DNA of 43,072 nucleotides from Clostridiales bacterium (GTDB taxonomy: Bacteria; Bacillota; Desulfotomaculia; Desulfotomaculales; VENG01). Of the stretch, positions 20,828 through 41,010 are shown piece by piece; the first letter of the stretch is position 1, and each line of letters opens with the position of its first letter. Both the position numbers and the translations under genes were made by a program. The stretch spans positions 1-43,072 of the forward strand of contig JAIPEW010000023.1 in NCBI GenBank assembly GCA_021736985.1, in the 5' to 3' direction. The notes under the pieces were generated by a model. It searched no databases. It was not told where the DNA came from and saw only the letters and a list, made by a program, of their open reading frames with translations.

Positions 20828-22150
20828 TCATCTAATAAATCTTAACAAATTAAATGTTTTTAATGGCATATAGATTAAAAATCTAGTTTCTTTAAAAAAG
20901 ATTACACTAAAATATGCTTGAATTGATACTGATAACAAGGTAGCAATTGGAGCACCAATTACACCACATGCAGATATAAGAATATAATTTAAAACTATAT
21001 TACATGTGACTCCTATCAGCGTCCTATATAATTGTATCTTTGTAATATTTTCAATAATAATATGTTTAGAAATTACAATTCCGACAAAATTAAAAATAGC
21101 TTCTATTACCAATATTTTTAAAATCAATGAACTTAACAAATATTCTGTACCATACAAAAACAAAATAATATAATCCGATAAAAATACAACACTAAATATT
21201 ATTAACAAGGCAAACATAATTATCATATCAAATAAATTCTGCAATTTATTTTTGTAATATTTTTCACCAACTTCTTTTGCCTTCACCAAATAAGGATAAA
21301 AGGTATTACTTATTGCAAAGGCTACAAAGCCCCATTGCTTAAGCCTTGTAGCAGCAGAATACAACCCAACTGAATGATCACCAAGCATGTTACCCACCAT
21401 AACATGGTCAATTTTCATATGCACTGCTACTGCAGCACTTGAAAAAATTAATGGAAGACTATCATTTAACATTTTTTTTATAACTTTTTTGTTAACTTTC
21501 CAGTCAAAAACAGATGTTTTAAGTTTTAATCTATAAAAAAATACTAAGCAAATTGATTCTAAAAGGAAACTTACACTTATCATGATAACAAATGAAAATA
21601 GAGAAGCTTTTACTACAATCAATATTACTCTCATTACACTTACTATGACTAAAGAGATAATAAGCGAAAGCGAAATATATTTTGCTTGGACCTGAGAATA
21701 AAACCAGTACTTGATAACCTCAAATGGTTTAAACAGATAACCAAGTGTCACAATAATTATAAAAAATTTTATTTGAGGAGATTTTACATCAAACAAATAT
21801 AATGTTAATAATATAACTAAATTTAGAATTATTGAGCCAAATAGCCTTAACAGAAATACTGAACCCATAACATCTTCTTTATTTTCAGTTTTTACTAATT
21901 CCCTTATAGCAATTTGTTCTAGACCTAAAGTAGAAATAAAAGCAAAGAGAGAAACGAAAGATATTGAATAGTTTAATTTACCAAAACTTGTGGGGCCTAA
22001 ATATCTTGCCACCCATGCAGTAACAAAGACACCTAATACTAATTTAATTAACTTTTCTAAAGTAATCCAATTAATGTTAAATATAATTTTCTTTATTTGG
22101 TTATCATTATTTATTTTAAGTAAAGTTTTAGATAAAACATTATTTAACAT
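20828..22150 (-). CDS. wzx: Oligosaccharide flippase (Wzx-like)
   Basis: This 440-aa integral membrane protein of the MOP/PST superfamily has about twelve hydrophobic helices. The N-terminal WITLEKLIKLVLGVFVTAWVARYLGPTSFGKLNYSISF is the family hallmark, followed by LGLEQIAIRELVK. It would move the lipid-linked repeat unit across the membrane for polymerisation by the Wzy-like protein. It is the second structural gene of the cluster, 190 bp after cysC. Substrate specificity is not predictable. Confidence 0.9.
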   Translation of the reverse strand: MLNNVLSKTLLKINNDNQIKKIIFNINWITLEKLIKLVLGVFVTAWVARYLGPTSFGKLNYSISFVSLFAFISTLGLEQIAIRELVKTENKEDVMGSVFLLRLFGSIILNLVILLTLYLFDVKSPQIKFFIIIVTLGYLFKPFEVIKYWFYSQVQAKYISLSLIISLVIVSVMRVILIVVKASLFSFVIMISVSFLLESICLVFFYRLKLKTSVFDWKVNKKVIKKMLNDSLPLIFSSAAVAVHMKIDHVMVGNMLGDHSVGLYSAATRLKQWGFVAFAISNTFYPYLVKAKEVGEKYYKNKLQNLFDMIIMFALLIIFSVVFLSDYIILFLYGTEYLLSSLILKILVIEAIFNFVGIVISKHIIIENITKIQLYRTLIGVTCNIVLNYILISACGVIGAPIATLLSVSIQAYFSVIFFKETRFLIYMPLKTFNLLRFIR

Positions 22151-27147: not shown

Positions 27148-27321
27148 ATGGATGCAAAAAAAACAGGCATACTGCTGTTTATCTTGGGCGCCCTGGTTGG
27201 CATACTGGGCGGTTACTTCATGATCACCGCTGGAACAATAGAAAACAAGATCAACGGCGTCATACTCACCTTCACCGGCGGAATAACCTGCGGCTGCGCC
27301 GGCACCCTACTCCGTAAATAA
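27148..27321 (+). CDS. 57-aa two-helix membrane protein
   Basis: The frame starts at ATG 27148 after GGGTGAT and encodes 57 residues: a short charged start (MDAKKTG), a first hydrophobic helix (ILLFILGALVGILGGYFMI), a polar turn (TAGTIENKING), and a second helix (VILTFTGGITCGCAGTLL) ending RK. It is in a different frame from the longer overlapping 63-aa frame that starts at 27032, which has no membrane logic. No family recognised. Its stop codon TAA is the first part of the palindromic element that follows. Confidence 0.65.
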   Translation: MDAKKTGILLFILGALVGILGGYFMITAGTIENKINGVILTFTGGITCGCAGTLLRK

Positions 27322-27357
27322 GTTGGTGACAGTGAACTGCACCAACTTATTTTTTAC
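27316..27357 (+). repeat. Palindromic element, copy a (also terminator)
   Basis: AAATAAGTTGGTG (27316-27328) and CACCAACTTATTT (27340-27352) form a 13-bp stem with an 11-base loop, followed by a T run. This copy differs from the others in its longer loop. It includes the TAA stop of the 57-aa gene and has the form of an intrinsic terminator. Confidence 0.8.
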
Positions 27358-27433
27358 ACAGATTCATTGAGATTGATTACACGTATTTCCTTTACCTTTT
27401 GCAGTTGGCTATCATTTGAGATGAATGCTCCAA

Positions 27434-27703
27434 TTATTCCAGCCATTCTTTTTCGCGCTCCTGCTTTAATTCCTCAACCCCATTTTTCCATAAGTGTTTT
27501 CCACGCCCGGAAAGAGCACCAGTGAAATTTTGCGGCTTTCTTATAACAGTAATTGTATTACTGTTTTCATCATATTCCCATAGCAGTACATCGCCCACTT
27601 TTATTTTTACATTGTCACGAATATACGCGGGAAGTGTAACTTGATATTTTTCCCTGACAACAGTTTCCTTATCTTTATTTTCGAAATCCTCCCGGTTGAT
27701 CAT
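27434..27703 (-). CDS. AbrB/MazE-like DNA-binding protein
   Basis: This 89-aa protein has a swapped-hairpin AbrB fold core: KETVVREKYQVTLPAYIRDNVKIKVGDVLLWEYDENSNTITVIRK. The C-terminal tail (about 60-89) is charged. Such proteins are transition-state-type regulators or antitoxins. No toxin gene (MazF or PIN type) lies next to it. The frame extends to a GTG at 27721, but that contains the GGAGGTGG ribosome site for the ATG at 27703, which is therefore the start. Confidence 0.82.
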   Translation of the reverse strand: MINREDFENKDKETVVREKYQVTLPAYIRDNVKIKVGDVLLWEYDENSNTITVIRKPQNFTGALSGRGKHLWKNGVEELKQEREKEWLE

Positions 27704-27790
27704 CAAAAAAACCACCTCCACACCTGTTGGAAATAATATACCACATCTCCTACTAACTTAAAATCCGTAAGACAATCACCAACATATTCT

Positions 27791-28414
27791 TTACAATTCT
27801 CTTTTGAGCTGGCGGAGGTAGAGTTCTGCTTTGCGGGAGAGGCGGTAGTACTTGTGGTTCATGTGCTTGGTCCAGTCTTTCTGGCGGTGGTAGTTGTGCA
27901 GCATTGTGCCTTCTACTCTTTTGAGAAAGTCTTTTTTGAGCAGCACTTCGAGCCTGTGCCTGGCCTCTGATTCAGTTAGTCCCAGGTTTATTCCCAGGCG
28001 CCAGGCGTATTCGGGCCCCGCGTACTCGATAAACTTGAGTATCTCGTGGTCAACATCGTCCTCTATCTCTTCCTCTAAATAGCCGTTTTCCAGTAGAAGA
28101 TTGTATACCTCGGAGCTCAATTCCGCGCACTCTTCTTTGTATTCTTCATATAATTCTTCCAGTTCAGCGTCTTCCCCGGTTTCCGATAAAATATCTTCTA
28201 ATTCCTGCAGGTCATTTACCCTGCCCTGCAGTTTTTCTGCAGGTGCACACAGGTAATTCAAGTATTCCAGCTGCTGCGCGAGTCCCGGCATTCTTTCCGG
28301 GTCAGTGCTCACCTCCGGGCGGGAAAGAAGCTCGCGCGTTTCGTCGCGCTCTTTAATCAGATTTTCCACCCGGGCCCGGATTTCTTCACTGGTGAGATAC
28401 TTGGAGTTAAACAC
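27791..28414 (-). CDS. DUF2250-like winged-helix protein
   Basis: This 207-aa protein is highly acidic and helical in its first half (RVENLIKERDETRELLSR; ELEELYEEYKEECAELSSEVYNLL), consistent with a coiled coil. Its second half (about 120-205) is winged-helix-like: HEILKFIEYAGPEYAWRLGINLGLTESEARHRLEVLLKKDFLKRV then HKYYRLSRKAELYLRQL. This resembles DUF2250 proteins. It starts with GTG at 28414 and overlaps the methyltransferase stop by 8 nt, so the two are translationally coupled. A regulatory role for the pair is an inference. Confidence 0.7.
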   Translation of the reverse strand: MFNSKYLTSEEIRARVENLIKERDETRELLSRPEVSTDPERMPGLAQQLEYLNYLCAPAEKLQGRVNDLQELEDILSETGEDAELEELYEEYKEECAELSSEVYNLLLENGYLEEEIEDDVDHEILKFIEYAGPEYAWRLGINLGLTESEARHRLEVLLKKDFLKRVEGTMLHNYHRQKDWTKHMNHKYYRLSRKAELYLRQLKREL

Positions 28415-29348
28415 GGCCCAGCTCGTTCACCATGCATTCTATATGGCGCCAGTCCGTTCCGCAGCATCCCCCTATGATTTTAATACCCGTTTTATTATAC
28501 ACATCTGCCATTAGCCGGCCGAAATCCCCGGGTTCTTCTGCATCCAGTTCAGCTGCTTCATCGAGTTCTTCGGGAGTTTTCCTGGATGTATTGGCCTGGA
28601 AGCCCAGTATCCTCTCCCTGGCCTGCGGGGATGAGTTCGTGTCACTGGTTATAGCTTTATAAAAGATGGAACTGTGCACGCAATTGATCATGTAGCACAG
28701 GGGCCCCGGCTCTGCCCCGCTGTCAATGGTCGATACGGCCTCGTGCAGCGGCGTGCCGTCCAGCAGCGTCCCCTGCGGCCTGACTACAAAACTCAAGATA
28801 TACGGCTTGCCGGATTTTGCCAGGGCCCGGGCCATACCGAGAGCCTCAGAAGCAGCCGGCAGCGTATAAGCAATTAAAAAATCTACCCCGGTTTCGGCCA
28901 GTTCTCTAATTTGCAAAGCATGAAAACGCTCAGCTTCGCCGGAGCTCAAAGCTTCCCCGGGATCATAGGCATTGCCCCTGCACGCTATAGACCCGCCTAT
29001 GTAGACTGATCGGGCATATTCCCCGTACAGGCTGCGCAGCCCGGACAGGAACAAACAGCAGTCCCGGTTAACGCTGTTATCCTCCCCGAATCCTGCCTGC
29101 CTTAAACGCTCAGGATTTGCGCGCCACGTAGGAGTAACTACTAGTGAAGGCAGGTTATACTTATATCCAATATCCAGGTAATCCCTGTACACCTGCTCTA
29201 AATACGCCTTTCCGTCACTGTCGTATACAAGGCCTGCTTCCACAATATAATTATCCAGTTCTACGGGAAATTCCCTGTTTATTCTTTCCGTAGTCCCTCC
29301 CTCGGCAATTATGAAAGGACTCTTCTCCAGGGCAGTTTTAAAATCCAC
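28407..29348 (-). CDS. Homocysteine S-methyltransferase family protein
   Basis: This 313-aa TIM-barrel protein has the zinc-binding cysteines of the family: one in CYMINCVHSS near 212-221 and the pair in IIGGCCGTDWRHIECM near 296-311. The N-terminus IIAEGGTTERINREF matches the MetH/MmuM/BhmT N-terminal barrel. Members transfer a methyl group to homocysteine from methylmethionine, betaine or methylcobalamin; the donor is not predictable. A TTG at 29366 opens the frame, but GGGGGAGAGG lies inside those codons and 6 nt before a GTG at 29348, which I take as the start. Confidence 0.88.
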   Translation of the reverse strand: MDFKTALEKSPFIIAEGGTTERINREFPVELDNYIVEAGLVYDSDGKAYLEQVYRDYLDIGYKYNLPSLVVTPTWRANPERLRQAGFGEDNSVNRDCCLFLSGLRSLYGEYARSVYIGGSIACRGNAYDPGEALSSGEAERFHALQIRELAETGVDFLIAYTLPAASEALGMARALAKSGKPYILSFVVRPQGTLLDGTPLHEAVSTIDSGAEPGPLCYMINCVHSSIFYKAITSDTNSSPQARERILGFQANTSRKTPEELDEAAELDAEEPGDFGRLMADVYNKTGIKIIGGCCGTDWRHIECMVNELGRV

Positions 29349-29738
29349 GCACCTCTCCCCCTTCAAACATTGTTATATAAAACAATTAACTACCGCTTAC
29401 AAAATAAACGGCAGCCTCAGATTTTTAAACATATTCTATATAATTGGATAATCTCCTGCAGGTGTCAATTCACTCCTCGAGCAAATTAAGAACATAACTT
29501 ACCGCTAAACCCTACAATGACTGCCAGGAAAACAGTACATAATAAGCAATTATTCCCCATACGTTCAGTATTATTATAGCACCTCATATTTATACTATTA
29601 TTTACCTCGCCTGGAAGATTAATTCACTACATAATATCTAAAAAAAATTTCTTGTAATATTTTGTCGTCATAAAAGGAAAATTCATATAAATCAAGAAAA
29701 TCTTTAAAGTAATATAATTTCAAGTTTAAAAATGTCAA
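29349..29738. other. Gene-poor stretch upstream of the riboswitch
   Basis: About 390 bp without a gene. A TATAAT at 29713-29718 is well placed as the -10 of the promoter for the riboswitch and chemoreceptor. I see no clear -35 at the usual spacing. A 92-aa minus-strand frame (29619-29897) crosses the riboswitch and is not credible. Confidence 0.5.
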
Positions 29739-29817
29739 AATAACGGGCAAAGCGGTCGAAAGGCCGTGACGCAAAGCTTTGGGCCTAAGGTTGTTCACTA
29801 AGGCCGCCAGGCTGCTT
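29739..29817 (+). ncRNA. Cyclic di-GMP-I riboswitch aptamer (GEMM-I)
   Basis: The core reads GGGCAAAG, then a stem CGGTC-GAAA-GGCCG with a GNRA tetraloop, then the diagnostic GACGCAAAGC (29768-29777), then GGGCCTAAGG and the second arm ending GCCAGGCTGC. These segments occur in the order and spacing of the GEMM-I consensus. The aptamer binds c-di-GMP. It lies about 125 nt upstream of a chemoreceptor gene, a common target of this class in Clostridia. Confidence 0.93.
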
Positions 29818-29862
29818 ATAAGAAATCTTTTTATGAAGCAGCCTTTCAGACTGCTTTTTTTT
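29810..29862 (+). terminator. Riboswitch expression platform: alternative hairpin and terminator
   Basis: GGCTGCTT (29810-29817) can pair with AAGCAGCC (29836-29843), forming a long hairpin. Alternatively AAGCAG (29836-29841) pairs with CTGCTT (29851-29856) and is followed by a T run, forming an intrinsic terminator. The two share 29836-29841, so they exclude each other. The first hairpin begins inside the aptamer's 3' edge, so ligand binding could favour the terminator (OFF switch). That direction is inferred. Confidence 0.8.
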
Positions 29863-29870
29863 AAATTTAT

Positions 29871-29913
29871 CAATAAGTAAAAAAATGTGCCAGGCACGAT
29901 TTTTTACTTATTG
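29871..29913. repeat. Palindromic element, hybrid copy f
   Basis: CAATAAGTAAAAAA (29871 on) pairs with TTTTTTACTTATTG (to 29913) around a centre TGTGCCAGGCACGA. The outer CAATAAGT/ACTTATTG arms are the same as in copy b, but the centre is a different GTGCC-AGGCAC type palindrome. It lies between the riboswitch terminator and the chemoreceptor ribosome site, in the 5' leader. Confidence 0.7.
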
Positions 29914-29940
29914 CAAAAAAATATTAACAGGGAGGTTCAA

Positions 29941-31833
29941 ATGTTTAATACTATCAAGTTTAAAATTATTGCACCAATTTTAATAATTACCCTGCTCGGG
30001 TTTTTATTTATTATCTACCATAATTATACAAACATGGTTGATATGCAGCTGAACCAAGAAAAAAAAGAGTATAACCTCATGACAAAGTCTATTGAAAATG
30101 ACCTGGACGGCGTATTCAGTAAAACTAAAATGGCGCTTGAATCAGTAGTACAAAACCCGGCTATACAGAAAGCTTTTGGAGAACGAGATCGTGATGAACT
30201 AACGAGATTGACCTATCCTATATATAACAAAGTACACCAGCAGGGAATAGAACAATTTCACTTTCACCTTCCCAATGCTGTTTCATACTTGCGTCTACAT
30301 AAACTTAGCAATCACGGGGATGACCTGTCATCTTTTCGCAACACGGTAGTAAAATGCAACAATGACAAGAAAATTGTCATGGGCCTGGAAGAAGGGAAGG
30401 CCGGGATTGGATTCCGCGTAGTGGTACCGGTCTTTTACCAGGCCGAACATACAGGCAGCGTAGAATACGGCATGGGTTTAACCTCTTCCATGGTAGAAGA
30501 ATGGCAAAAAGACCTGGGCGGGGAATACTTTATCTACAAAAAGGGAGCTTCAGGAGTATCCTGGGACAACCAAAAAAACGGGCTGCTGGTTTCTACCATG
30601 GAAAAAGATCCTTTTGAATTAGATGAAGAAAGTCTAAAGAATATATTAGAAAATAAATCTGCAGGCACCATATACAGCAACAACAAAAATAGGGCAGCAG
30701 TAATAATTCCCCTTACAGATTACAGCAGCAAGGTTATAGGGTACGTAAAAGTTTTGAAAGACCGCACAAAAATATTAAATAATATCCACAACATATTATT
30801 TAACGCTATCTTCAAAGCTATTGCAGCTTTACTTGTCATATTGGCCGCCACTTACATTATCACCAGGCTTATATCCACCCCCTTAAATAAATTAAATTAT
30901 GCAGCCGAAGCTATTGCTCAAGGTGATTTAACTAAGGAAATAGATACCGGGATAAAAAGTAAAGACGAAATTGGCAGGTTGGATGAATCCTTTAAAAAAA
31001 TGAAAGAAAATTTGCAGCTGATGGCTGCTGACATAAAAGAAAATTCCGATAAACTTGCTTCACACAGCCAGGAGCTCGCCTCCTCCAGCGAAGAAGTAAC
31101 TGCTACCATGGAAGAAATAGCAAGCACAACCAGTGAAGTAGCATCTACCTCGAATGAAGGAGCTAACAATGCACAAACAGCGGCAGAAGAGTCAGAGCAA
31201 GTTCAGCAGGTTGCAGAAGAAGGCAACAGGGCTGTACAGGAAACAGTGAAAAAGATAAATAACATATCGCAATCAGCACAAAATGCTTCCAATACGATCC
31301 ATAATCTCGGCAAGCAGTCAGAACAAATAGGAGAAATAATAGAAACTATAACCAGCATTGCCGACCAGACAAACCTGTTGGCATTAAACGCGGCCATAGA
31401 AGCCGCCCGGGCAGGAGAACACGGAAAAGGATTTGCCGTAGTAGCAGAGGAAGTACGCAAGCTTGCAGAACAAACTTCTCAATCGACCAGTGAAATTACA
31501 GCACTTATTAATAAAATCCAGGCCGGTGCTGAAGAAGCAGTAAACGCCATGGAAGACAGCACTTCCCAGGTAAATACGGGCGTTGAAATAGCCACTAACG
31601 CGGGAACTTCACTTGAACAAATCAAAAAAGCAGTTGAAAACAACACCGCTACAATTCAGGACATAGCAAGCGGGGCCCAACAAACCAACGAGGGCACACA
31701 GCAGCTTTCTACCTCCAGCGAACAAATCACTTCTACAGTGCAGGGGGTATCAGATTCTGCTCAGGAATTAGCCAATATCGCCAGTGAACTGCAAAAAACT
31801 GCGGCCAGGTTCAAGATAAATTCCAGTTCATAA
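29941..31833 (+). CDS. Methyl-accepting chemotaxis protein with Cache-type sensor
   Basis: This 630-aa chemoreceptor has a first membrane helix (about 8-26) and an extracytoplasmic sensor region (about 30-285). The sensor includes [17 protein letters not shown] and [23 protein letters not shown], as in Cache_3/dCache-type sensors. A second helix (about 290-312), a HAMP domain (to ~365) and the signalling domain with [44 protein letters not shown] near 472-515 follow. Glutamine/glutamate pairs around the coiled coil would be methylation sites. The ATG at 29941 follows GGGAGG. The transcript is probably controlled by c-di-GMP through the upstream riboswitch. The ligand is unknown; no CheW/CheA genes are nearby. 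Confidence 0.95.
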
Positions 31834-31952
31834 GTTTCTAAAAATTAACACCGTAATCCAGTAATTCTAATTAATCAACAAGTAACATTTTAAGCGTCAT
31901 CCTCATAATATGAAATTGCAACTGAACAACGCCTAGAAAGGAGGCCATAAAC

Positions 31953-32072
31953 ATGGGTTACGGTGGTGGCAGTACTGGATGCTTCGACGGAAGCTTCATC
32001 CTTTTCTTGATCCTGATTTTACTGGTATTTAGCTGCATGCCTTTATTCGGGCCCTGCGGTACCAGCAGCTAG
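31953..32072 (+). CDS. 39-aa YjcZ-like membrane protein
   Basis: This short gene starts at ATG 31953 after AAAGGAGG. The product has a glycine-rich start (MGYGGGSTGCFDG), one hydrophobic helix (SFILFLILILLVFSC) and a short tail MPLFGPCGTSS. This layout is like the YjcZ/YhcZ-type sporulation proteins of Bacillota, although those usually lack the cysteines seen here. The clear ribosome site and terminator support a real gene. Function unknown. Confidence 0.72.
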   Translation: MGYGGGSTGCFDGSFILFLILILLVFSCMPLFGPCGTSS

Positions 32073-32118
32073 CAGGCAAAAAAATATCATAGTGTAAAGC
32101 TATTTACTTAACCAAAAA

Positions 32119-32154
32119 TCAAGCCGGGATAAATTCTGCCCGGCTTGATTTTTT
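32119..32154 (+). terminator. Terminator after the 39-aa gene
   Basis: TCAAGCCGGG (32119-32128) pairs with CCCGGCTTGA (32139-32148), followed by TTTTTTAT. A 10-bp stem with a U-tract. Confidence 0.9.
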
Positions 32155-32239
32155 ATACTCATCATGAAAAGGTATTTTGTCGATACAAGTTGAATTTTCA
32201 TAGTAATGTATAAAATAAGAGAAAGGAGGTTTTTAAATC

Positions 32240-32569
32240 ATGGAAAACAACAAAACTTCGCTGGGCATGAATGAAAACATAGAAGCTTTACTGTGTTATA
32301 TCCTGGGTTGGATAAGCGGTTTAGTTTTCTTATTAATTGAAAAGGAAAATAAGTTTGTTAGATTTCATGCAATGCAGTCTATCGTAATATTCCTGGCTTT
32401 ATTTTTAATATCACTGGTTTCCGGTATAATTCCAATTTTAGGTGCAATAATCTCTCCCCTGCTTTTCCCGGTTAGCCTGGTATTAGAAGTATTCTTGATG
32501 TACAAAGCATTTAAAGGAGAAAAATATAAATTCCCTTTTGCCGGCAATTTTGCTGAAAAGCAAATCTAA
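32240..32569 (+). CDS. DUF4870-like membrane protein
   Basis: This 109-aa protein has three predicted membrane helices: LLCYILGWISGLVFLLI, MQSIVIFLALFLISLVSGIIPI and a third within PLLFPVSLVLEVFLMYKAF. The connecting segment EKENKFVRFHAMQSI is a hallmark of DUF4870/YlqF-like membrane proteins. Function unknown. GAAAGGAGG lies before the ATG. It stands alone between terminators. Confidence 0.85.
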   Translation: MENNKTSLGMNENIEALLCYILGWISGLVFLLIEKENKFVRFHAMQSIVIFLALFLISLVSGIIPILGAIISPLLFPVSLVLEVFLMYKAFKGEKYKFPFAGNFAEKQI

Positions 32570-32709
32570 TTTCCAAGGTCACTTTTAAAATAAAATTTAC
32601 TTATTAAAGATATGAGCACGTCTTATAAATGACTGAATTTTTAGCCCGCGTGAGGTATCTTAGTATTGTCTTAAGTGACCTGGAGATTCCTGAATTGCAG
32701 CCCATAGCA

Positions 32710-32751
32710 AAAGATAATACCCCTGTTTTCTCAGGGGTATTATCTTTTTTT
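32710..32751 (+). terminator. Long-stem intrinsic terminator
   Basis: AAAGATAATACCCCTG (32710-32725) and CAGGGGTATTATCTTT (32732-32747) form a 16-bp perfect stem with a 6-base loop and a T run. It is 140 bp beyond the DUF4870 stop and upstream of the 80-aa gene. The A-rich left side would let it work on both strands. Confidence 0.9.
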
Positions 32752-32831
32752 ATTACATATTTAAAATAAACAGGGAAAAAATACTCTGAAAAGATTTATA
32801 TTTTATTGTAATATAGAAAGGAGAGAACAAC

Positions 32832-33074
32832 GTGTTCCTTACCGATAGAATAACAGAAATGTCTAATGAAATGATGAATGAACACATGGAAAATGTCAAA
32901 AATGATCCTGAAAAATATGATAAAGTTCTCCAGATGTCTATCAAGGGTATGGAACTAGGAATAATTTACTTAAGAGAAAACAAGCAATTCAGAGAAGTTT
33001 TTGCCAACCTGCATGCCGAATTCTTAAAATACCCGGAATGCAGAAAGGTTATTAATGATGCTTTTAACAGCTAG
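32832..33074 (+). CDS. Uncharacterised 80-aa protein
   Basis: This gene starts with GTG at 32832, after AAAGGAGAG. The product is helical and methionine-rich in its first half (ITEMSNEMMNEHMENVKNDPEKYDKVLQMSIKGMELG) and ends EFLKYPECRKVINDAFNS. There is no signal peptide or membrane helix. No family is recognised. It is a single-gene unit between two terminators. Confidence 0.7.
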   Translation: MFLTDRITEMSNEMMNEHMENVKNDPEKYDKVLQMSIKGMELGIIYLRENKQFREVFANLHAEFLKYPECRKVINDAFNS

Positions 33075-33272
33075 AATAATGTTCCAGGCAGTAATGTCTT
33101 TTAAATGACTGATGTTTACTCTGCTTTAATGTATTTTTAAATTACTGGCACAAGTTAATTTATCTCCTCCGTTTTAAAAAGATATGGAGATTCTAGTTTT
33201 TTTGTCTCCTAAATATCTACAGTTATCTTTTAGCGCCCCTCCGGGGGCGCTTTTACTTTTATACAGAATTAG
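33075..33272. other. Spacer with convergent terminator
   Basis: About 200 bp without a gene. GGAGA/TCTCC at about 33186-33209 and the stronger stem listed at 33232-33255 are the only structures. Confidence 0.4.
33232..33255 (+). terminator. GC-rich terminator
   Basis: AGCGCCCC (33232-33239) pairs with GGGGCGCT (33244-33251), followed by TTTT. It ends the 80-aa gene unit. The converging 55-aa gene stops at 33273. Confidence 0.8.
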
Positions 33273-33440
33273 TTAAGATTTAAAGTCTAGTTTATTGCTG
33301 TAAGGCTTAACCCAACCGTTAATTACTTTCTCCCAAAATTTTTTCCTGCTTAGTTCCGGGTCTTTGCTTTTTGCTTTTTTGTACATCAAGTTAAATACTT
33401 CCTCTGTCTCCGGCGGAAAATTAACTTTTGATAAATTCAC
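33273..33440 (-). CDS. Uncharacterised 55-aa protein
   Basis: This gene starts with GTG at 33440 after GGGGAGGTG. The product MNLSKVNFPPETEEVFNLMYKKAKSKDPELSRKKFWEKV... is small, soluble and basic at the C-terminus. The frame extends to an ATG at 33557, but that part lacks a ribosome site and overlaps the promoter of the divergent TetR gene. No family recognised. Confidence 0.6.
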   Translation of the reverse strand: MNLSKVNFPPETEEVFNLMYKKAKSKDPELSRKKFWEKVINGWVKPYSNKLDFKS

Positions 33441-33592
33441 AAAATCACCTCCCCGGGAGTAAATATATGCAGTAAGTACCCCTGGAGAGATAATTTTTTC
33501 TTGCAAACTAAATATTTGCAAAACAAACCGTCTGGATGGTATAGTAATAATATTCATTATTACTATAACTATTTATATACGAGGTATTTATA

Positions 33593-34132
33593 ATGGGAAA
33601 AAATTCAAAGAAAATTAGAATTCTTGAAGCCGCTGCCCATGTTATTCAAAACAAAGGCATATTTTATTTAACACTGGATGCAGTCGCTAAAGAAGCAGAA
33701 GTAAGTAAAGGGGGATTATTGTATCACTTTCCTTCCAAAGAAGCCTTAGTCGAAGGAATGGTACATCACTTAATCGATACATATATTAAAAGAATTAGAA
33801 CCAGTGCAAGTAATGACAACATAGATCAAGGAAAATGGACGCGGGCATTTATTCAAGAAACATTCCACCAGAATCAAACCAGTAAAGAAATGAACGCGAG
33901 TTTACTGGCAGCAGTTGCAGTAAACCCGGACCTGTTAGAACCTATGCGCAAAGCATACCGTGAATGGCAGCAGCACATAGAAAACGACGGGATTGACCCG
34001 GTTAAAGCCACGATTTTAAGACTGGCAGTGGACGGCTTATGGCTTTCAGCCTTATTTGACCTGGCTCCTTTAAATAACGATTACCAGGAAGATATTGTTG
34101 CAGCCCTGCTGCAGCAAACAGAAAAACCTTAA
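33593..34132 (+). CDS. TetR/AcrR family transcriptional regulator
   Basis: This 179-aa protein has the TetR helix-turn-helix at about 8-55: KIRILEAAAHVIQNKGIFYLTLDAVAKEAEVSKGGLLYHFPSKEALVEGMV. A C-terminal ligand-binding helical domain follows. It sits 26 bp upstream of a small multidrug-export-type membrane gene on the same strand, and probably represses its own operon. The inducing ligand is not predictable. Confidence 0.92.
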   Translation: MGKNSKKIRILEAAAHVIQNKGIFYLTLDAVAKEAEVSKGGLLYHFPSKEALVEGMVHHLIDTYIKRIRTSASNDNIDQGKWTRAFIQETFHQNQTSKEMNASLLAAVAVNPDLLEPMRKAYREWQQHIENDGIDPVKATILRLAVDGLWLSALFDLAPLNNDYQEDIVAALLQQTEKP

Positions 34133-34158
34133 TTTGCGAGGTTAAGAGAGGTTAAGAT

Positions 34159-34590
34159 ATGATAAAAAAAATTTTGGCAGTCGTACTTCTAGCAACTACT
34201 CCCTGGGGAGAATGGTTCATAGCAGTACCTGCCGGGTTATTAATGAATATATCTTTTGGAGTTTTAGTACTTGCTGCTTTTGGCGGTAACTTGCTTCCAG
34301 TTCTTATTATATGTGCTTTTTGGAGTAAATTAAAAAATTCACTGCATAAGTGGCAAAATAAACGGCAGGGCAAAGCACAAAGTTTCTTAAAGAAATACGG
34401 AATTACAGGTTTAATATTTTTTGCCCCCATGTCAGTCGGAGTATATGTTTCTACTATTACTGCTCTCTTAACAGGCCTATCATCCCGGCGTACTATACTT
34501 CTGCATATATTTTCTCTAACATTTTGGGGCATACTTATTTTTATTTTATACTTATTTGGCATAGAAGCCTGGACCATATTTGAGCAATAA
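34159..34590 (+). CDS. Small multidrug-export family membrane protein
   Basis: This 143-aa integral membrane protein has three to four helices. The N-terminal LLATTPWGEWFIAVPAGLLMNISFGVLVLAAFGGNLLPVLII and the later YGITGLIFFAPMSVGVYVSTITALLTGL match the sm_multidrug_ex (PF06695-type) family. Despite the name, transport activity is poorly established. It is co-oriented with and directly downstream of the TetR regulator, so regulated export of a toxic compound is a reasonable guess. Confidence 0.85.
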   Translation: MIKKILAVVLLATTPWGEWFIAVPAGLLMNISFGVLVLAAFGGNLLPVLIICAFWSKLKNSLHKWQNKRQGKAQSFLKKYGITGLIFFAPMSVGVYVSTITALLTGLSSRRTILLHIFSLTFWGILIFILYLFGIEAWTIFEQ

Positions 34591-34737
34591 ATATGGATAT
34601 CGACAAATTATATTAATTCCAGAAATAGAAGTTATTAACAACTGTTAGTAACTTTTAACTTTTCTGTGGATAACCCGGACATTTTTCCATTATATGTTAA
34701 TAAATATAAATTACTGGCAGCACGTCTTCGACAAAAT

Positions 34738-34768
34738 CAATAAGTTGGTGCCTGTCAACAACTTATTG
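34738..34768. repeat. Palindromic element, copy b
   Basis: CAATAAGTTGGTG (34738-34750), loop CCTGT, then CAACAACTTATTG (34756-34768). The arms are 13 bp with one mismatch. It is intergenic, away from any stop codon. Confidence 0.85.
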
Positions 34769-34952
34769 TTTTATTACCTTGTTATATAATTCTCAAGCAT
34801 TTATTTTGCTAATAGCAATTGACAATTCATCCCCCTTATGATACAGTAAATGTCAAATACAGATCACGAATTATTAATTATAAGACATTATTTGTTTAGC
34901 TATAAATTCTACTTATAGTTGCGAGTTAAATAAAATGGGGGTGTGTAATATA

Positions 34953-34994
34953 ATGTTTGGCTGGTTAAAGAAAAAATTTATAACATCTATGTAG
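34953..34994 (+). CDS. Possible 13-aa micro-ORF
   Basis: ATG at 34953 follows GGGGGTG at good spacing, and a plausible promoter lies about 35-60 bp upstream. The product would be MFGWLKKKFITSM, a short amphipathic peptide. It could be a truncated gene start, a leader peptide without a partner, or chance. Confidence 0.25.
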   Translation: MFGWLKKKFITSM

Positions 34995-35046
34995 GATATT
35001 GAGCAAAGACGCAGAGAAACATGGTGCTTTGCATGTAAAGATAAAA

Positions 35047-35075
35047 AATAAGTTGGTGCCTGTCACCAACTTATT
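35047..35075. repeat. Palindromic element, copy c
   Basis: AATAAGTTGGTG (35047-35058), loop CCTGT, CACCAACTTATT (35064-35075). The 12-bp arms are perfect. It contains the end of the metallophosphoesterase gene: the last codons ATA AGT TGG and the stop TGA are read from it. Confidence 0.88.
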
Positions 35076-35827
35076 AGAGTTATTACTGCTGCTTCGGGGC
35101 GGCACAAGAAGCGAACGGGCATTTTGCTGGTTCCGAGGCCCCGGTTTACATACATGTAACTCCCTTTTTCATAAAATAAACCCGCATCGTACTCAGGAAA
35201 CTTTCCCTGTCCAGGTGCGTATAAGGCTCCTATCCACGGCAAGCGTATTTGCCCGCCGTGGGTATGCCCGGCCAGTACCAGGTCCACCCCGTTCTCTGCT
35301 GCCTTTTTAAATATACTGGGATAATGGGAGAGCATTATTAGCACTTTTTCGCTGTACTTTTTTATACTTGTGCCGGGCCCCGCTATAACAAAATCTTTAC
35401 TCTCTACCCTTTTTCCTTTCTCCAGTACATTTACTCCCTGTTCTTCAAGCTTCTTTCTAAACTCACCGTATATCTCAATTGCCTCTTCATGATTACCAGG
35501 CACAAAATACACCGGTGCATACTTAGATGCAGCCTTTACCAGTTCCAGTCCCGGCTGTATATCCTTTTTCCGGCGGTCCACCACGTCTCCCGTTATTGCT
35601 ACCATATCCACCTGCTGGCCTTCTAAGAGGCTAAAAATCTCTTTTTGCCCTTTTCCAAAACGAGCACTGTGAAGATCAGTAAGGTGCAATATTTTATAAT
35701 TTTTCATGGATTGAGGCAGGTTTTTAACTGGCACTTCAATCCTGGTTAATTGAGGAACCTGGCTGTACCACATGATACCTCCTGCGCATAACAAAAACAC
35801 AGATATTATTCTAATCATTATTTTCAT
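35063..35827 (-). CDS. Metallophosphoesterase (YkuE/YaeI-like)
   Basis: This 254-aa protein has one N-terminal membrane helix (3-20, IMIRIISVFLLCAGGIMW) and a calcineurin-like phosphoesterase domain. All metal-binding blocks are present: LHLTDLHSARFG (D51, H53), ITGDVVDR (G80, D81), VPGNHEEA (N112, H113), LSHYP (H168) and GHTHGGQ (188-193). It is similar to YkuE/YaeI-type enzymes acting on envelope phosphodiesters. The last residues (ISW) and the TGA stop come from palindrome c, so the original C-terminus may have been replaced. It is divergent from the SNF2 gene. Confidence 0.92.
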   Translation of the reverse strand: MKIMIRIISVFLLCAGGIMWYSQVPQLTRIEVPVKNLPQSMKNYKILHLTDLHSARFGKGQKEIFSLLEGQQVDMVAITGDVVDRRKKDIQPGLELVKAASKYAPVYFVPGNHEEAIEIYGEFRKKLEEQGVNVLEKGKRVESKDFVIAGPGTSIKKYSEKVLIMLSHYPSIFKKAAENGVDLVLAGHTHGGQIRLPWIGALYAPGQGKFPEYDAGLFYEKGSYMYVNRGLGTSKMPVRFLCRPEAAVITLISW

Positions 35828-35844
35828 ATTATTTATTCTTCCCT

Positions 35845-35876
35845 ACAAAAGTTGGTGCCTGTCACCAACTTTTTGT
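35845..35876. repeat. Palindromic element, copy d, between divergent genes
   Basis: ACAAAAGTTGGTG (35845-35857), loop CCTGT, CACCAACTTTTTGT (35863-35876). It fills most of the 61-bp gap between the metallophosphoesterase and SNF2 start codons, so it overlaps or abuts both promoters. Confidence 0.88.
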
Positions 35877-35882
35877 TATAAT
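35877..35882 (+). promoter_or_regulatory. -10 box of the SNF2 gene
   Basis: TATAAT lies 6 nt before the ATG at 35889. If it is the -10, the transcript would begin at or next to the start codon (leaderless). A -35-like TTGGTG (35852) would be inside the palindrome at 19-bp spacing. No ribosome site is visible before 35889. Confidence 0.45.
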
Positions 35883-35888
35883 ATAAGT

Positions 35889-38800
35889 ATGAGTTATATG
35901 CATTCTTTAACTGAAGAAAAAATCAAAGATACGGCGACCAACTTGCAAGTTTACTTGAGAGGTCAGGAATATTACCGGAAAAAACGGGTAATCAACTTTG
36001 AATTCTCAGAAGAGAGTCTATGTGCCCGCGGTATAGTTGCAGGAAGCGATGAGTACGACGTTGAAGCATGTTTCTCCGAAGACGGAGATATTACCGGTAT
36101 GTATTGTGACTGCCCGGCATTTGCCCAGTTTAGAGGAGCTTGCAAGCATGTTGTTGCTCTTTTAGAGATGTGCCGTGTTGAAATTGCAAACAAAAAGAAG
36201 ATGCAATTTAGAGAGCAAAACATGGTAAATAACATACTGGAATATTTTGAACACAGCTCCCGGGCCCCGCAAAAAAGGCCCTTGAAAGTGGAATTCATTC
36301 TGGATTTATCTTATGATGACTTCGGGCGTGAAATTATCCCTTCCCTATCTTTGAAGCTTGGGGAAAAAAGATTATACGTTGTACGAAACTTGAAGCAGCT
36401 GCTCCAGGCAATAAAAAAGAATACAGAACTTGCCCTGGGGAAACATTTTACTTTTTCCCCGCTGCACCATACATTTCACCCGGAAGACGAGCCAGTTATT
36501 GATTTACTGAGCGAGTTATACGAAATAGAAAAAAGTACTGCTGAGAGTTATCACAGCTGGCACCAAAAATTATTTAAAGGCAAACATGTTTTTTTGCCCG
36601 GCACAACTCTGAATCGGCTGCTTTCTATTTTACCCCGGGAAAGATTTATTTTAAAGCTTTTTGGCGAGGAATATAACAATGTACAAATAGTGGAAGAGGA
36701 TCTGCCGCTGCATTTTACGTTGGATAAAGATAAAGAAAAAAACGAGCTGGTACTGCAGTGGAAGGGATTGGGCCCGGGCCCCCTGCTGCACGCAGGGGAG
36801 CACATCTTCTGCAGCGGCAAGTTTTACAAAACCTCCGAGCGGCAGAGAAACTGTTTTATCCCCCTGCTAAACGCCTTTATTGAACTGCCGGACGGTATTC
36901 GTTTTTCCCGGGAGCAGCAAGAGCGCTTCGTGACACAAGTTTTACCCGAGATAAAACAAACAGGACAGGTAGATATTTCACCGGAAGTACAAAACAGTAT
37001 ATACGATGCCGGTTTAAAAACTGAAATTTATTTAGACAGGGTTGAAGAAGCAGTTACCGCCAGTATTAATTTTGCGTACGGAGAAATCAAGATTAATCCT
37101 TATGCCAGTGATACAGGTTACCAGGCCGGAGATAAAATACTGCTGCGAGACACGGAGCAAGAAAGTGTTATTTTAAACCTATTTGAAAAGGCAAAATTCC
37201 GTGCTGCAAATAAAAAATTATATTTAGAAGAAGAGGAAAAAATATACGAGTTTGTGTATCATATCCTGCCAGAGATGCAGGAAAAGGCAGACATCTATTA
37301 CTCCGAGAAGTTTCGCAACATGCGGGTCAGGAGCAGCAATTTTACCGGAAGTGTAAACCTCAACGAAGAAAGTGAAATGCTGGAGTTTTCTTTTCAGATG
37401 GAAAATATAGACACCGGGGAACTGGCAGATATCTTTAAGGCCCTCAGGGAAAAGAAAAGATATCACCGCCTGAAAGACGGTTCATTTTTGCCGCTGGAAA
37501 ACCCCGGTTCGGATTTGCACGAGGCAGTGGAGATAGTTGATTCATTAAATATCCCGGAGCGCCAGTTGAAACAGGACGTTGTTGAAATACCCAAGAATAA
37601 AGCTTTATTTATTGACAGCGCTCTGCAGGAATCACAGCTGGAGTTAAAAAGAAATGCTGCTTTTGAAGAGCTGGTGCAGGATATCACCGGGGCCCGGCAC
37701 AAAGACTTTGAAATCCCGGAAATCTTCAAAGGTGTACTGAGAAACTACCAGGAAACAGGTTTCAAGTGGTTAAAAACACTTGCCGGGTACGGTTTCGGGG
37801 GAATACTGGCCGACGACATGGGGCTGGGAAAAACTATTCAAGCCATTGCATTTATTGTATCTGAAAGAGAAAAACAAAAGCTGCCTGCGTTAGTCATAGC
37901 ACCTACTTCCATGGTCTACAACTGGCAGGATGAAGCCCAAAAGTTTGCCCCCGGTTTAGAAGTAACAGTAGTTGCAGGAACACCCCGGCAGCGGAAAATG
38001 CAGCTGCAGGAAGCCAGAAATGCAGCCCTTGTGATTACTTCCTACGCCTTGATCCGCAGGGATATAGAAATGTATCAAGAATTTAACTTCAGCTGCTGCT
38101 TTCTTGATGAAGCACAGCACATAAAAAACCCCGGGGCCCTGGGTGCAAAAACAGTTAAACAAATAAAAGCCGGGACATGCTTTGCCCTGACAGGCACCCC
38201 GCTGGAAAACAACCTGACAGAGCTGTGGTCCATATTTGACTTTATAATGCCCGGTTACTTATTCACCCGCCGGGAATTTAGCAAAAGATATGAAAAACCA
38301 GTAGTAAAAGAGCAGGACCAAAAAGCCCTGCAAAAGCTGCAAAAACAAATAACCCCTTTTATCTTGCGCAGGATGAAAAAAGACGTGCTGCAGGAACTTC
38401 CTCCCAAGTTTGAGAGCAAAGTACCTGCTGATTTAACCACGGAGCAGAAAAAGGTTTATCTTACCTATTTGCAGCAAGCCAAAGGAGAAATAGAAGAAGC
38501 TGTAGCCAGCCAGGGATGGGAAAAAAGCCAGATTAAAATCTTGTCCGCGCTGACAAGGCTGCGCCAGGTATGCTGCCACCCGGCCACTTTTTTAGAAAAT
38601 TATACAGGTGACAGCGGTAAATTACAAAACTTGAAAGAAATCATGCAGAACGCTGTAGAAAGCGGGCACAGGATCTTGCTTTTCTCCCAGTTCACCGCCA
38701 TGTTGGGTATCATACGCCAGCACCTGGACAAAGAGAATATATCCTATTTTTACTTAGACGGCTCTACAAAGGCAGAAAAAAGAGGTGAAATGGTCCGTTC

Positions 38801-39122
38801 CTTTAACGAGGGGCAGCGCCAGGCCTTCTTGATATCCTTAAAAGCCGGGGGTACAGGCTTGAACCTGACCGGCGCTGACATGGTAATTCATTACGACCCC
38901 TGGTGGAACCCCGCCGTAGAAGAACAGGCAACCGACCGGGCATACCGCATAGGCCAGAAAAATTCAGTGCAAGTAATCAACCTGGTCACCAGGGGCACCA
39001 TCGAAGAAAAAATATACGAACTGCAGCAAAAAAAGAAAGACATGATCAACTCAGTAATCAAACCCGGAGAAACAATGCTGGCCAAAATGACAGAACAAGA
39101 AATCCGCGAACTCCTCCAATAA
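35889..39122 (+). CDS. SNF2-family helicase with SWIM zinc finger
   Basis: This 1077-aa protein begins with a SWIM zinc finger (YCDCPAFAQFRGACKHVVALL, about 72-92: C-x-C...C-x-H). A helicase-associated region follows, and then the SNF2 ATPase: DDMGLGKTIQAI (Walker A, about 641-652), DEAQH (about 738-742), LTGTPLENNLTELWS, and the C-terminal helicase lobe with GGTGLNLTGADMVIHYDPWWNPAVEEQATDRAYRIGQ near 990-1020. It is a DNA-dependent ATPase/translocase, like the bacterial SWIM-SNF2 group. The frame could begin further upstream (35772), but that part overlaps the divergent gene and encodes no domain. Its last codon CAA and stop TAA lie in palindrome e. Confidence 0.93.
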   Translation: MSYMHSLTEEKIKDTATNLQVYLRGQEYYRKKRVINFEFSEESLCARGIVAGSDEYDVEACFSEDGDITGMYCDCPAFAQFRGACKHVVALLEMCRVEIANKKKMQFREQNMVNNILEYFEHSSRAPQKRPLKVEFILDLSYDDFGREIIPSLSLKLGEKRLYVVRNLKQLLQAIKKNTELALGKHFTFSPLHHTFHPEDEPVIDLLSELYEIEKSTAESYHSWHQKLFKGKHVFLPGTTLNRLLSILPRERFILKLFGEEYNNVQIVEEDLPLHFTLDKDKEKNELVLQWKGLGPGPLLHAGEHIFCSGKFYKTSERQRNCFIPLLNAFIELPDGIRFSREQQERFVTQVLPEIKQTGQVDISPEVQNSIYDAGLKTEIYLDRVEEAVTASINFAYGEIKINPYASDTGYQAGDKILLRDTEQESVILNLFEKAKFRAANKKLYLEEEEKIYEFVYHILPEMQEKADIYYSEKFRNMRVRSSNFTGSVNLNEESEMLEFSFQMENIDTGELADIFKALREKKRYHRLKDGSFLPLENPGSDLHEAVEIVDSLNIPERQLKQDVVEIPKNKALFIDSALQESQLELKRNAAFEELVQDITGARHKDFEIPEIFKGVLRNYQETGFKWLKTLAGYGFGGILADDMGLGKTIQAIAFIVSEREKQKLPALVIAPTSMVYNWQDEAQKFAPGLEVTVVAGTPRQRKMQLQEARNAALVITSYALIRRDIEMYQEFNFSCCFLDEAQHIKNPGALGAKTVKQIKAGTCFALTGTPLENNLTELWSIFDFIMPGYLFTRREFSKRYEKPVVKEQDQKALQKLQKQITPFILRRMKKDVLQELPPKFESKVPADLTTEQKKVYLTYLQQAKGEIEEAVASQGWEKSQIKILSALTRLRQVCCHPATFLENYTGDSGKLQNLKEIMQNAVESGHRILLFSQFTAMLGIIRQHLDKENISYFYLDGSTKAEKRGEMVRSFNEGQRQAFLISLKAGGTGLNLTGADMVIHYDPWWNPAVEEQATDRAYRIGQKNSVQVINLVTRGTIEEKIYELQQKKKDMINSVIKPGETMLAKMTEQEIRELLQ

Positions 39123-39150
39123 GTTGGTGACAGGCACCAACTTATTGGAG
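39114..39150. repeat. Palindromic element, copy e, shared stop codons
   Basis: CTCCAATAAGTTGGTG (39114-39129), loop ACAGG, CACCAACTTATTGGAG (39135-39150): 16-bp perfect arms. The SNF2 gene ends CTC CAA TAA in the left arm, and the convergent amidase gene ends CTC CAA TAA in the right arm on the other strand. Both proteins therefore end in Leu-Gln from the same repeat. It may also act as a bidirectional hairpin, though no T run follows. Confidence 0.92.
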
Positions 39151-41010
39151 TTTGAAGTAGTTTGCGGCTCCTCTGGCTGCGGCTTCGGCTATTTTAGCGC
39201 GGTAAGAATCTGTTTTCATCAGATTTTCTTCGGCCGGGTTAGATAAAAACGAGCCTTCTACCAGTATTGACGGCATTGCAGCGGTGCGAAGTACTACGAA
39301 GTTGGCCTGCTTTATGCCTACGTTTTGCCGGTTTAGCAAGAGCAGCAGCTGGGATTGCACCTGCTGAGCCAGGGCCCTGTTGTCCTGCTGGGAAACTCCC
39401 AGGCCGGAGATGTTATCCCTGCGGTAATAGGTGCTGGTACCGGATGTAGAGCTTGACGGGTTAGCATTCATATGTATGCTGATAAAAATATCTGCACCAG
39501 CCTTTTGAGCAATTTGAGTACGTTCTTTCAGGCCCACGAATTTATCTGAATTCCTGGTCAAAATCACTTCGGCGCCGTTCTGGCGGAGCAGGTGAGCAGC
39601 TAACAGCGCTACGTCTAAATTTACTTCTTTTTCTTTCAAACCTGTACAGCCGGTAGCACCGTTATCATACCCACCGTGCCCGGGATCCAGCGCAATAACT
39701 TTGCCTTCGAGCTGGTCGCCCAGCTCCGGGACGTATAATTCTAAAGTAAGTTCTTCTCCCCCGTTTTTATCACGAACAGCAGTATCAAAAATCACCGGCT
39801 TTTTAACATCAAACACCAGGCGGGTGATGTCGGGGTTTTCGCTGTACTTGCTTGTCCTTATTTTTTTAACCAGATTGTTGTTTACATCTATCTCGGAATA
39901 GCTTTTATCGCCGGGTTCAACACCTTTTAAGTCGACAACTACACGCGCGGGATCGCTGAGTGTAAAGATGTCGTGTACCGCGGGCCCGGTCGTATTGATC
40001 ACGGCCAGTGTACGCCCGTCCACTTCCTGCACATCAAGCCCTGCCAGGCTTGAATCCCTGCTTCCCCGGTCAGGGACTGCAGCATCTGCGCTTTCCACCC
40101 TTACCAGCCAGTTAGCTATCCAGCCAATAGTGCCGGGTAAAAGCTTTACCTTGTACCAGCTGCCTGCTTTTTCTAATATGTTTAGCGATTCTCCAAGGTC
40201 AACGCTGGCAATAATGTCGTGGGTCTTTCCGGGCCCGCTCCGCACATTTACGTTCGCGGCGTCTACTACGCCCTGTACAGAACCAGAAATATCCTGCTCA
40301 GAACCCGTACCGCGAACTTCCACGTACCAGCCTGCTACCCAGCCGGATTCACCGCCGGGCAATTCCACCTTGTGCCAGCCCAGTTCTGAATCCTGAATAG
40401 GAAGCTCGTCCCCCTGTCTAACCTGGCCGGTTACAGGATTAGAGGACCCGGGCCCTCCGCGCACGTTTAATATACCTGCTGTCACTACTGCATTGAGTTC
40501 TTCCTCTTCTATAATGATATTAATCTGGTCATCTTTGTCTCCAGCAGGCTCATCACCTGTATCAACCGTATCTATCGAGACCGTCTTTGTATTACCATTC
40601 CAGTTAACCCGGGCCCCGACTGCCTCGCTCATAAACCTTAGCGGCACCAGCGTTCTTGAATTCATCAACTTAACCGGCGCGTCTAAAGATACTTTATCCC
40701 CGTTTACCGTCGGAGAATTGCTGCCTACCGGGGCCTTGATTATATTGCCGTCTTTTTTAATAACTGCTGCTTTTTCTTCCTGGTTCCAACCTACTTCGGC
40801 TCCCAGTTTCTCCGTTACAAATCTTAAAGGCACGTAAGTCCGCCCCGTGCTGGTATTTATAAAGGGATTCTGGTCAGTAAAAGCTGTTTGAGCGCCGTTT
40901 ACTTTTACATTAACATCATAATTAAGATTAGCTGCTGCATCTCCTGCCATAACCGGTGATACCGGAATCAACAGCAGTACAAGTAAAGCTGTTATTATTG
41001 CTGTGCGCAT
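39142..41010 (-). CDS. N-acetylmuramoyl-L-alanine amidase, secreted, multidomain
   Basis: This 622-aa enzyme cleaves the bond between MurNAc and L-alanine in peptidoglycan. A signal peptide (1-22, RTAIITALLVLLLIPVSPVMA) is followed by a copper-amine-oxidase-N-type domain (about 33-150, with TYVPLRFVTEKLGA and TLVPLRFMSEAVGA). Two bacterial SH3 domains (about 173-235 and 244-306) come next, then an AMIN domain (about 328-430). The catalytic Amidase_3 domain (about 435-622) has DPGHGGYDNGA, KEKEVNLDVA, SIHMNAN and LVEGSFLSN, which hold the zinc ligands and catalytic Glu. AAGGAGAG precedes the ATG. It is convergent with SNF2. Likely roles are cell separation or spore-related wall lysis. Confidence 0.95.
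   Translation of the reverse strand: MRTAIITALLVLLLIPVSPVMAGDAAANLNYDVNVKVNGAQTAFTDQNPFINTSTGRTYVPLRFVTEKLGAEVGWNQEEKAAVIKKDGNIIKAPVGSNSPTVNGDKVSLDAPVKLMNSRTLVPLRFMSEAVGARVNWNGNTKTVSIDTVDTGDEPAGDKDDQINIIIEEEELNAVVTAGILNVRGGPGSSNPVTGQVRQGDELPIQDSELGWHKVELPGGESGWVAGWYVEVRGTGSEQDISGSVQGVVDAANVNVRSGPGKTHDIIASVDLGESLNILEKAGSWYKVKLLPGTIGWIANWLVRVESADAAVPDRGSRDSSLAGLDVQEVDGRTLAVINTTGPAVHDIFTLSDPARVVVDLKGVEPGDKSYSEIDVNNNLVKKIRTSKYSENPDITRLVFDVKKPVIFDTAVRDKNGGEELTLELYVPELGDQLEGKVIALDPGHGGYDNGATGCTGLKEKEVNLDVALLAAHLLRQNGAEVILTRNSDKFVGLKERTQIAQKAGADIFISIHMNANPSSSTSGTSTYYRRDNISGLGVSQQDNRALAQQVQSQLLLLLNRQNVGIKQANFVVLRTAAMPSILVEGSFLSNPAEENLMKTDSYRAKIAEAAARGAANYFKLQ

Follow-up and report, generated by a model that had tools for sequence, protein, structure and literature searches.

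The closest described relatives of the element reported here are the repetitive extragenic palindromes (REPs) of the GTAG and CGTC types and their REP-associated tyrosine transposases (RAYTs). The element, a short hairpin, occurs five times in a 43,072-nt stretch of contig JAIPEW010000023.1 (GCA_021736985.1; genome size 2.84 Mb, labeled G000), and this whole stretch is called the window. According to two papers on GTAG/CGTC REPs, these are short extragenic palindromes linked to Y1 transposases, they lie mostly beside the 3' ends of genes, where the neighboring genes are convergent or co-directional, and their termini often supply stop codons (PMC2817692, PMC3733652). The element is similar in these respects. 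Nunvar 2010 places REPs directly after the stop codons of rayt genes (PMC2817692), and Di Nocera 2013 reports that GTAG REP termini often provide TAG stops and that REPs between convergent genes are mostly no more than 20 bp from both 3' ends (PMC3733652). Di Nocera 2013 also describes tyrosine transposases flanked by terminal inverted repeats (TIRs), named TIRYTs, in species without GTAG REPs. The inverted repeats of these TIRtrons are unrelated to GTAG, some are self-complementary, and they are repeated in the genome (PMC3733652), a pattern that is also seen here. A third related process is template switching at quasipalindromes, in which fold-back copying makes, perfects, and extends inverted repeats and can invert loops (PMC8794818, PMC7202029), with the extension of stems and inversion of loops described in PMC8794818.

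In contrast to GTAG/CGTC REPs, the element has neither the GTAG nor the CGTC tag; its AAW/WTT ends give TAA and its interior gives TGA. About a quarter of its copies have copy-specific mirror-image flanks, which are not described in the available portions of the REP papers (PMC2817692, PMC3733652). Stop codon supply is a known effect in kind; here it involves TAA and TGA, a hairpin without a GTAG head, and a different RAYT clade. On sequence grounds, the element is a RAYT-linked, REP-like family and not a classical REP, because it has no GTAG head. A preliminary description of this DNA had proposed a REP-like element at gene ends; the placement and the RAYT link uphold this, while the missing GTAG head sets the element apart from REPs in the strict sense. 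The mirror-image flanks appear to be the new part and are worth specialist attention. No published account of such flanks at REP-like elements was found in the literature searched, which does not by itself prove that none exists. Overall, the best explanation, and a moderately probable one, is that a RAYT has spread a non-autonomous hairpin that closes genes and whose flanks may be copied by fold-back synthesis.

The aligned flanks of 45 copies define the repeat unit as a 29-bp hairpin, AAWAAGTTGGTG-N5-CACCAACTTWTT, in which the conserved letters end 3 bases beyond the core AAGTTGGTG-N-CACCAACTT. The AAW/WTT ends belong to the conserved unit. Past them the pooled flanks are unconserved, and no unpaired GTAG or CGTC tetranucleotide is present. 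The commonest loops, CCTGT and ACAGG, are reverse complements of each other. The 2.84 Mb genome contains 34 exact hairpin copies and none of the reversed-pattern control, and 44 copies are found when up to 3 mismatches are allowed at fixed spacing. Exact and near matches together gave the 45 copies used for the placement analysis. Dinucleotide shuffles of the window gave no AAGTTGGTG/CACCAACTT pairs. The size and dispersal are those of a REP (a palindrome of 20-40 bp, extragenic), with a 29-bp unit and 45 copies, none truly intragenic. No known RNA family was matched at the palindromes, the sole match in the region being a c-di-GMP-I riboswitch elsewhere in it. The exact variant was not found in 39 relatives; the nearest relative found, of a different genus in the same family, is without it. 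Related hairpins of the form AATAAGTT...GGTGCCWGGCACC...AACTTATT are present in the relatives G001, G020, G027, G056, and G070. At L208-L210 of G056, the GGTGCCWGGCACC hairpin is part of a longer repeated unit, which may be a miniature element of larger size; the hairpin is flanked there by TATACTATTGTATA... and ...TTTTGAGGG. A contig scan for the element across other taxa was of little use, giving scattered matches in unrelated taxa among the matches listed.

Placement was calculated from the stretches around the copies with simple open reading frame (ORF) calls of at least 100 aa rather than a trained gene finder. The stop codon of a gene pointing at the element lies within 10 nt in 21 of the 45 copies. 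By comparison, positions drawn at random gave 1.3, and 200 trials with random intergenic positions gave a mean of 6.7 and a maximum of 12. Stops are found on both sides in 8/45 copies, against 0.6 for random intergenic positions. This agrees with the preliminary suspicion that copies gather non-randomly at gene ends. The stop codon draws letters from the core in 9/45 copies. Two reading frames meet a stop in the AATAAG end and the interior, one with TAA and the other with ATA AGT TGG TGA. Five exact copies lie in gaps between divergent genes, which argues against a plain terminator.

The features of the window are listed below; the palindromes carry no strand.

27148-27321, + strand: 57-aa ORF; TAA at 27319-27321 from the element; no Pfam or family match, gene unproven.
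27317-27351 (core 27320-27348): element copy with an 11-nt loop; its AATAAG end gives the TAA of the 57-aa ORF.
29872-29912: solo hairpin of the C39 RAYT terminal type (AATAAGTAAAAAAATGTGCCAGGCACGATTTTTTACTTATT), compared with the flanks of the C39 RAYT described below.
34739-34767 (core 34742-34764): element copy with one mismatch, intergenic.
35047-35075 (core 35050-35072): element copy at the metallophosphoesterase 3' end; gives I-S-W-stop; terminator-like score on the - strand.
35063-35827, - strand: metallophosphoesterase; TGA at 35063-35065; ATA AGT TGG TGA (ISW*) is read from the element.
35846-35874 (core 35849-35871): element copy between the divergent metallophosphoesterase and SNF2 genes; supplies no stop.
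35889-39122, + strand: SNF2 helicase; the ORF opens at 35772, with the in-frame ATG at 35889 likelier; TAA at 39120-39122; ends RELLQ*.
39114-39150 (core 39121-39143, unit 39118-39146): element copy with a 7-bp mirror-image flank past the core; ends SNF2 and amidase, both with CTC CAA TAA.
39142-41010, - strand: N-acetylmuramoyl-L-alanine amidase; TAA at 39142-39144; ends NYFKLQ*.

All five palindromes of the preliminary description were recovered. Exact cores AAGTTGGTG-N-CACCAACTT start at 27320, 35050, 35849, and 39121, and the fifth core, at 34742, has one mismatch (CAACAACTT); the coordinates given earlier referred to longer arms. The stop codons ascribed to three of the five copies (TAA of the 57-aa ORF, TGA of the metallophosphoesterase, TAA of SNF2 and the amidase) were read in the same way, and the palindrome at 39114-39150 does have perfect 16-bp arms between convergent genes with identical last codons. 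The idea that the element adds C-terminal residues holds for the ISW of the metallophosphoesterase. The CTC CAA of SNF2 and the amidase lies in copy-specific mirror-image flanks outside the repeated element. The 35849 copy is the sole one flagged as lying within a gene; a position inside SNF2 was rejected because the SNF2 ORF start was over-extended. Two copies have long loops, at window 27320-27348 (11 nt, with an inner stem ACAGT-GA-ACTG) and at L031:3001-3028 (10 nt). The RAYT-type hairpin at 29872-29912 had been missed earlier. It lies between a c-di-GMP-I riboswitch (RF01051, 70.6 bits; window 29736-29819, + strand) and the ORF at 29887-31833, and it overlaps the over-extended start of that ORF. 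The riboswitch is directly upstream of this ORF, which resembles a methyl-accepting chemotaxis protein gene.

The window itself is without a Y1 transposase, as had been stated. A search of the genome for a Y1/RAYT-type gene found four near-full-length ones (C59, C33, C39, and C1), together with one IS200-type gene and fragments. Hairpins enclose the C39 RAYT on both sides (caataagtaaaaaaatGTGCCAGGCACaaatttttacttattg and caataagtaaaaaaatGTGCCTGGCACgtttttttacttattg); the downstream one contains the final codons and stop of the gene, AAT AAG TAA. As in TIRtrons, inverted repeats that bear no relation to GTAG lie on both sides of the Y1 genes of C39 and its clade. Unlike in TIRtrons, a GGGGWSAS-like motif, found only in part of the TIRs, marks the C59/C33 type here, whereas the C39 clade has AATAAGT...GTGCCWGGCAC...ACTTATT hairpins. 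Hairpins of this kind are located on both sides of the RAYTs of G000 (C39), G001 (two), G020, and G027, with those of G020 and G027 less perfect than the others. These five C39-type RAYTs form one clade with a support of 99/98, present in all bootstrap trees, in a tree of 40 proteins. The C39 protein matches Y1_Tnp (PF01797) with 39.7 bits at a cut-off of 23 and carries the HUH motif as GNHYHL. Against NCBIfam NF047646 (REP-associated transposase), it scores below the cut-off (64.7 vs 80 bits, E 8e-18), and the C59 protein scores above it (80.8 bits).

The AAGTTGGTG family and the C39-clade hairpins have common ends (AATAAGT...ACTTATT) and a common center (GTG-CCTGT-CAC); the middle arm is shorter in the AAGTTGGTG family. 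In G000, 14 of the 45 copies are crowded into 31 kb at one end of contig C56 (C56:34110-64679; L028, L029), and in G001 several copies are close to a C39-type RAYT on contig C41. Such clustering suggests that copies spread locally from a transposase locus. The element is quite probably moved by a C39-type RAYT, and the mover may be the C39 protein or a sister that has been lost. The C59 RAYT was set aside as the cognate transposase, despite an element copy about 180 bp away, since its group has GGGGACGG repeats. The GGGGWSAS motif is absent within 350 bp of the C39-clade genes and present at most C59-type genes. The C59/C33 group carries GGGGACGG repeats rather than C39-type hairpins, and long inverted repeats with GGGGACGG and arms of 26-30 bp surround the C59/C33-type RAYTs (L038:1847-1907 and 4389-4451; L143:2285-2349). 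The GGGGACGG repeats at these RAYTs are a second RAYT-linked repeat family, found in many genomes of the class.

In 11 of the 45 copies, the palindrome extends 7-12 bp past the core without a mismatch, and the sequence of the extension differs at every site. When the left and right flanks were re-paired across copies, the mean number of extended copies was 0.38, and the number stayed at 4 or below. The remaining 34 copies show no excess pairing outside the element. Pairing in the extended copies breaks off abruptly, with 18/110 positions paired beyond, and the arms abut the element in 11/11 copies with no left-over loop bases. The effect recurs more weakly in a second genus, where extensions reach at most 7 bp and 0/5000 re-pairings were as high. 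In the window, CTCCAAT...ATTGGAG produces the identical last codons of SNF2 and the amidase. Similarly, a YqeY/ABC-transporter pair at C56:56936 has a common AGC TAA and a GalE pair at C56:63245 a common GTTAAAA, both from the mirror-image flank. At L035, the in-gene arm encodes K-V where relatives have R-V, which suggests that the non-coding arm is the copy there. Fold-back copying accounts for the uninterrupted arms, the abrupt ends, the site-specific sequence, and the rewritten gene ends. The reverse-complementary pair of loops, CCTGT and ACAGG, bears on this cause too, as template switching can invert loops (PMC8794818). We prefer this template-switch step as the cause, giving it about an even chance.

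Alternatively, the element may prefer the exact center of palindromes that were already present (cruciforms or hairpins) as its insertion target; the mirror-image flanks would then be older than the insertion. Some REP families inside palindromes are reported in Di Nocera 2013, namely GTAG-23 in T. roseum, CGTC-1 in H. neapolitanus, and GTAG-15 in A. variabilis (PMC3733652), and palindromic targets would also produce abruptly ending arms. However, the reported targets share a consensus, whereas the extended arms here all differ. Since the arms touch the element in every extended copy, only loopless perfect palindromes could have served as targets; 27 of these were counted in 199 kb, about one per 7 kb. 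A palindromic target is absent at 34/45 copies. Insertion into older palindromes is unlikely.

Slightly less likely still is that the copies are kept as bidirectional terminators or mRNA 3'-end hairpins, with arms lengthened by selection for longer stems. The hairpins are strong (z -5.5 to -10), they have A-tract and T-tract ends, they lie near stops and in convergent gaps, and the extended copies are enriched at double stops (p = 0.014). One window copy is terminator-like by score, and the L012 copy is followed by TTTTTT. The terminator scan nevertheless flags only 1/5 window copies, a U-tract after the stem is missing in most extended copies, and the five exact copies in divergent gaps do not fit. 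Furthermore, the family is one sequence and not many unrelated stems, and flank pairing shows no gradation, being complete in the extended copies and not even partial in the other 34. An uptake-sequence-like word sitting in terminators, comparable to the uptake signal sequences that occur as inverted pairs in Haemophilus, would explain why a 9-bp word recurs as inverted pairs where genes end. This reading is rejected as very improbable: in the window, exact AAGTTGGTG is seldom found outside palindromes (only at 21265, besides the 34742 copy with its second arm lost), the conserved unit extends to the AAW/WTT ends, and most loops are CCTGT/ACAGG.

Orthologues of relatives were used as a substitute for empty sites, with tail anchors picked by eye. 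It had been considered that the stops and last residues might predate the element; orthologues without it mostly have different or longer C-termini. GalE on C56 stops with AWNWHRR* at the element, while 7/8 relatives run on with HPxGY or HPxGF. SNF2 ends with RELLQ* (relatives RELFNI*, REIFKA*, RELFSAI*), the amidase with NYFKLQ* (YYFAQKES*, NYFARKGE*, and others), the methyltransferase at L035 with LWKVQ* (LWRVDEIFT*, LWRVD*, and others), and GspE at L012 with EIMRAAR* (EIMRVSFEEG* and others). The phosphoesterase is of normal length, and its last three residues, ISW, are encoded by the element; its relatives end with ITL-TDS, ITL-KSK, or ITL-KSG. The same ISW* tail closes an unrelated gene at L032. 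Across seven families, the element-bearing tails are shorter than exchangeability predicts (p = 0.002). Given these differing or longer tails, the present stop and last residues at several sites look like a consequence of the element. The orthologue tails suggest, without proving, that the element shortens or rewrites gene ends.

The repeat family, its placement, its stop codons, its RAYT clade, and its mirror-image flanks, as observed above, could be connected as follows. The palindromes would be copies of a short non-autonomous REP-like element, kin to the terminal hairpins of a distinct Y1/HUH clade, and a Y1 transposase of the C39 kind would spread it. Surviving copies would sit between genes or in last codons, the least harmful places. 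At its landing site, the element would close the gene via TAA or ATA AGT TGG TGA and may replace the last residues. In about a quarter of the copies, the perfect hairpin would serve as a fold-back template: a DNA end on which the second arm has been copied would snap onto the first arm and run on into the flank. The reverse complement of one flank would then overwrite the other, giving convergent genes such as SNF2 and the amidase the same last codons. It is a tentative proposal, held at somewhat less than even confidence, that fold-back synthesis, possibly during RAYT-driven insertion, has time and again given convergent genes mirror-image 3' ends and new C-terminal codons that are identical in both. 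Unlike template switching as described at quasipalindromes, this synthesis would act repeatedly on mobile hairpin copies and rewrite gene ends, as judged from sequence comparison.

Several observations weigh against this explanation. The hairpins at the C39 RAYT are not of the exact AAGTTGGTG variant and have a longer middle arm, and the copy nearest to any RAYT adjoins C59, whose group bears other repeats. The extended copies are enriched between convergent genes (5/8, p = 0.014), which selection could explain too. The tail anchors were chosen by eye, and C-termini are variable anyway. Among the relatives compared there was no true empty site, and no insertion event and no direction of flank copying could be observed directly.

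The spread of REP-like hairpins is poorly understood. The mirror-image flanks are a footprint that could separate fold-back copying from plain insertion, and this footprint can be sought in any genome with such elements. If the explanation is true, protein C-termini are edited again and again by a very small mobile hairpin, through which convergent genes come to share their last codons.

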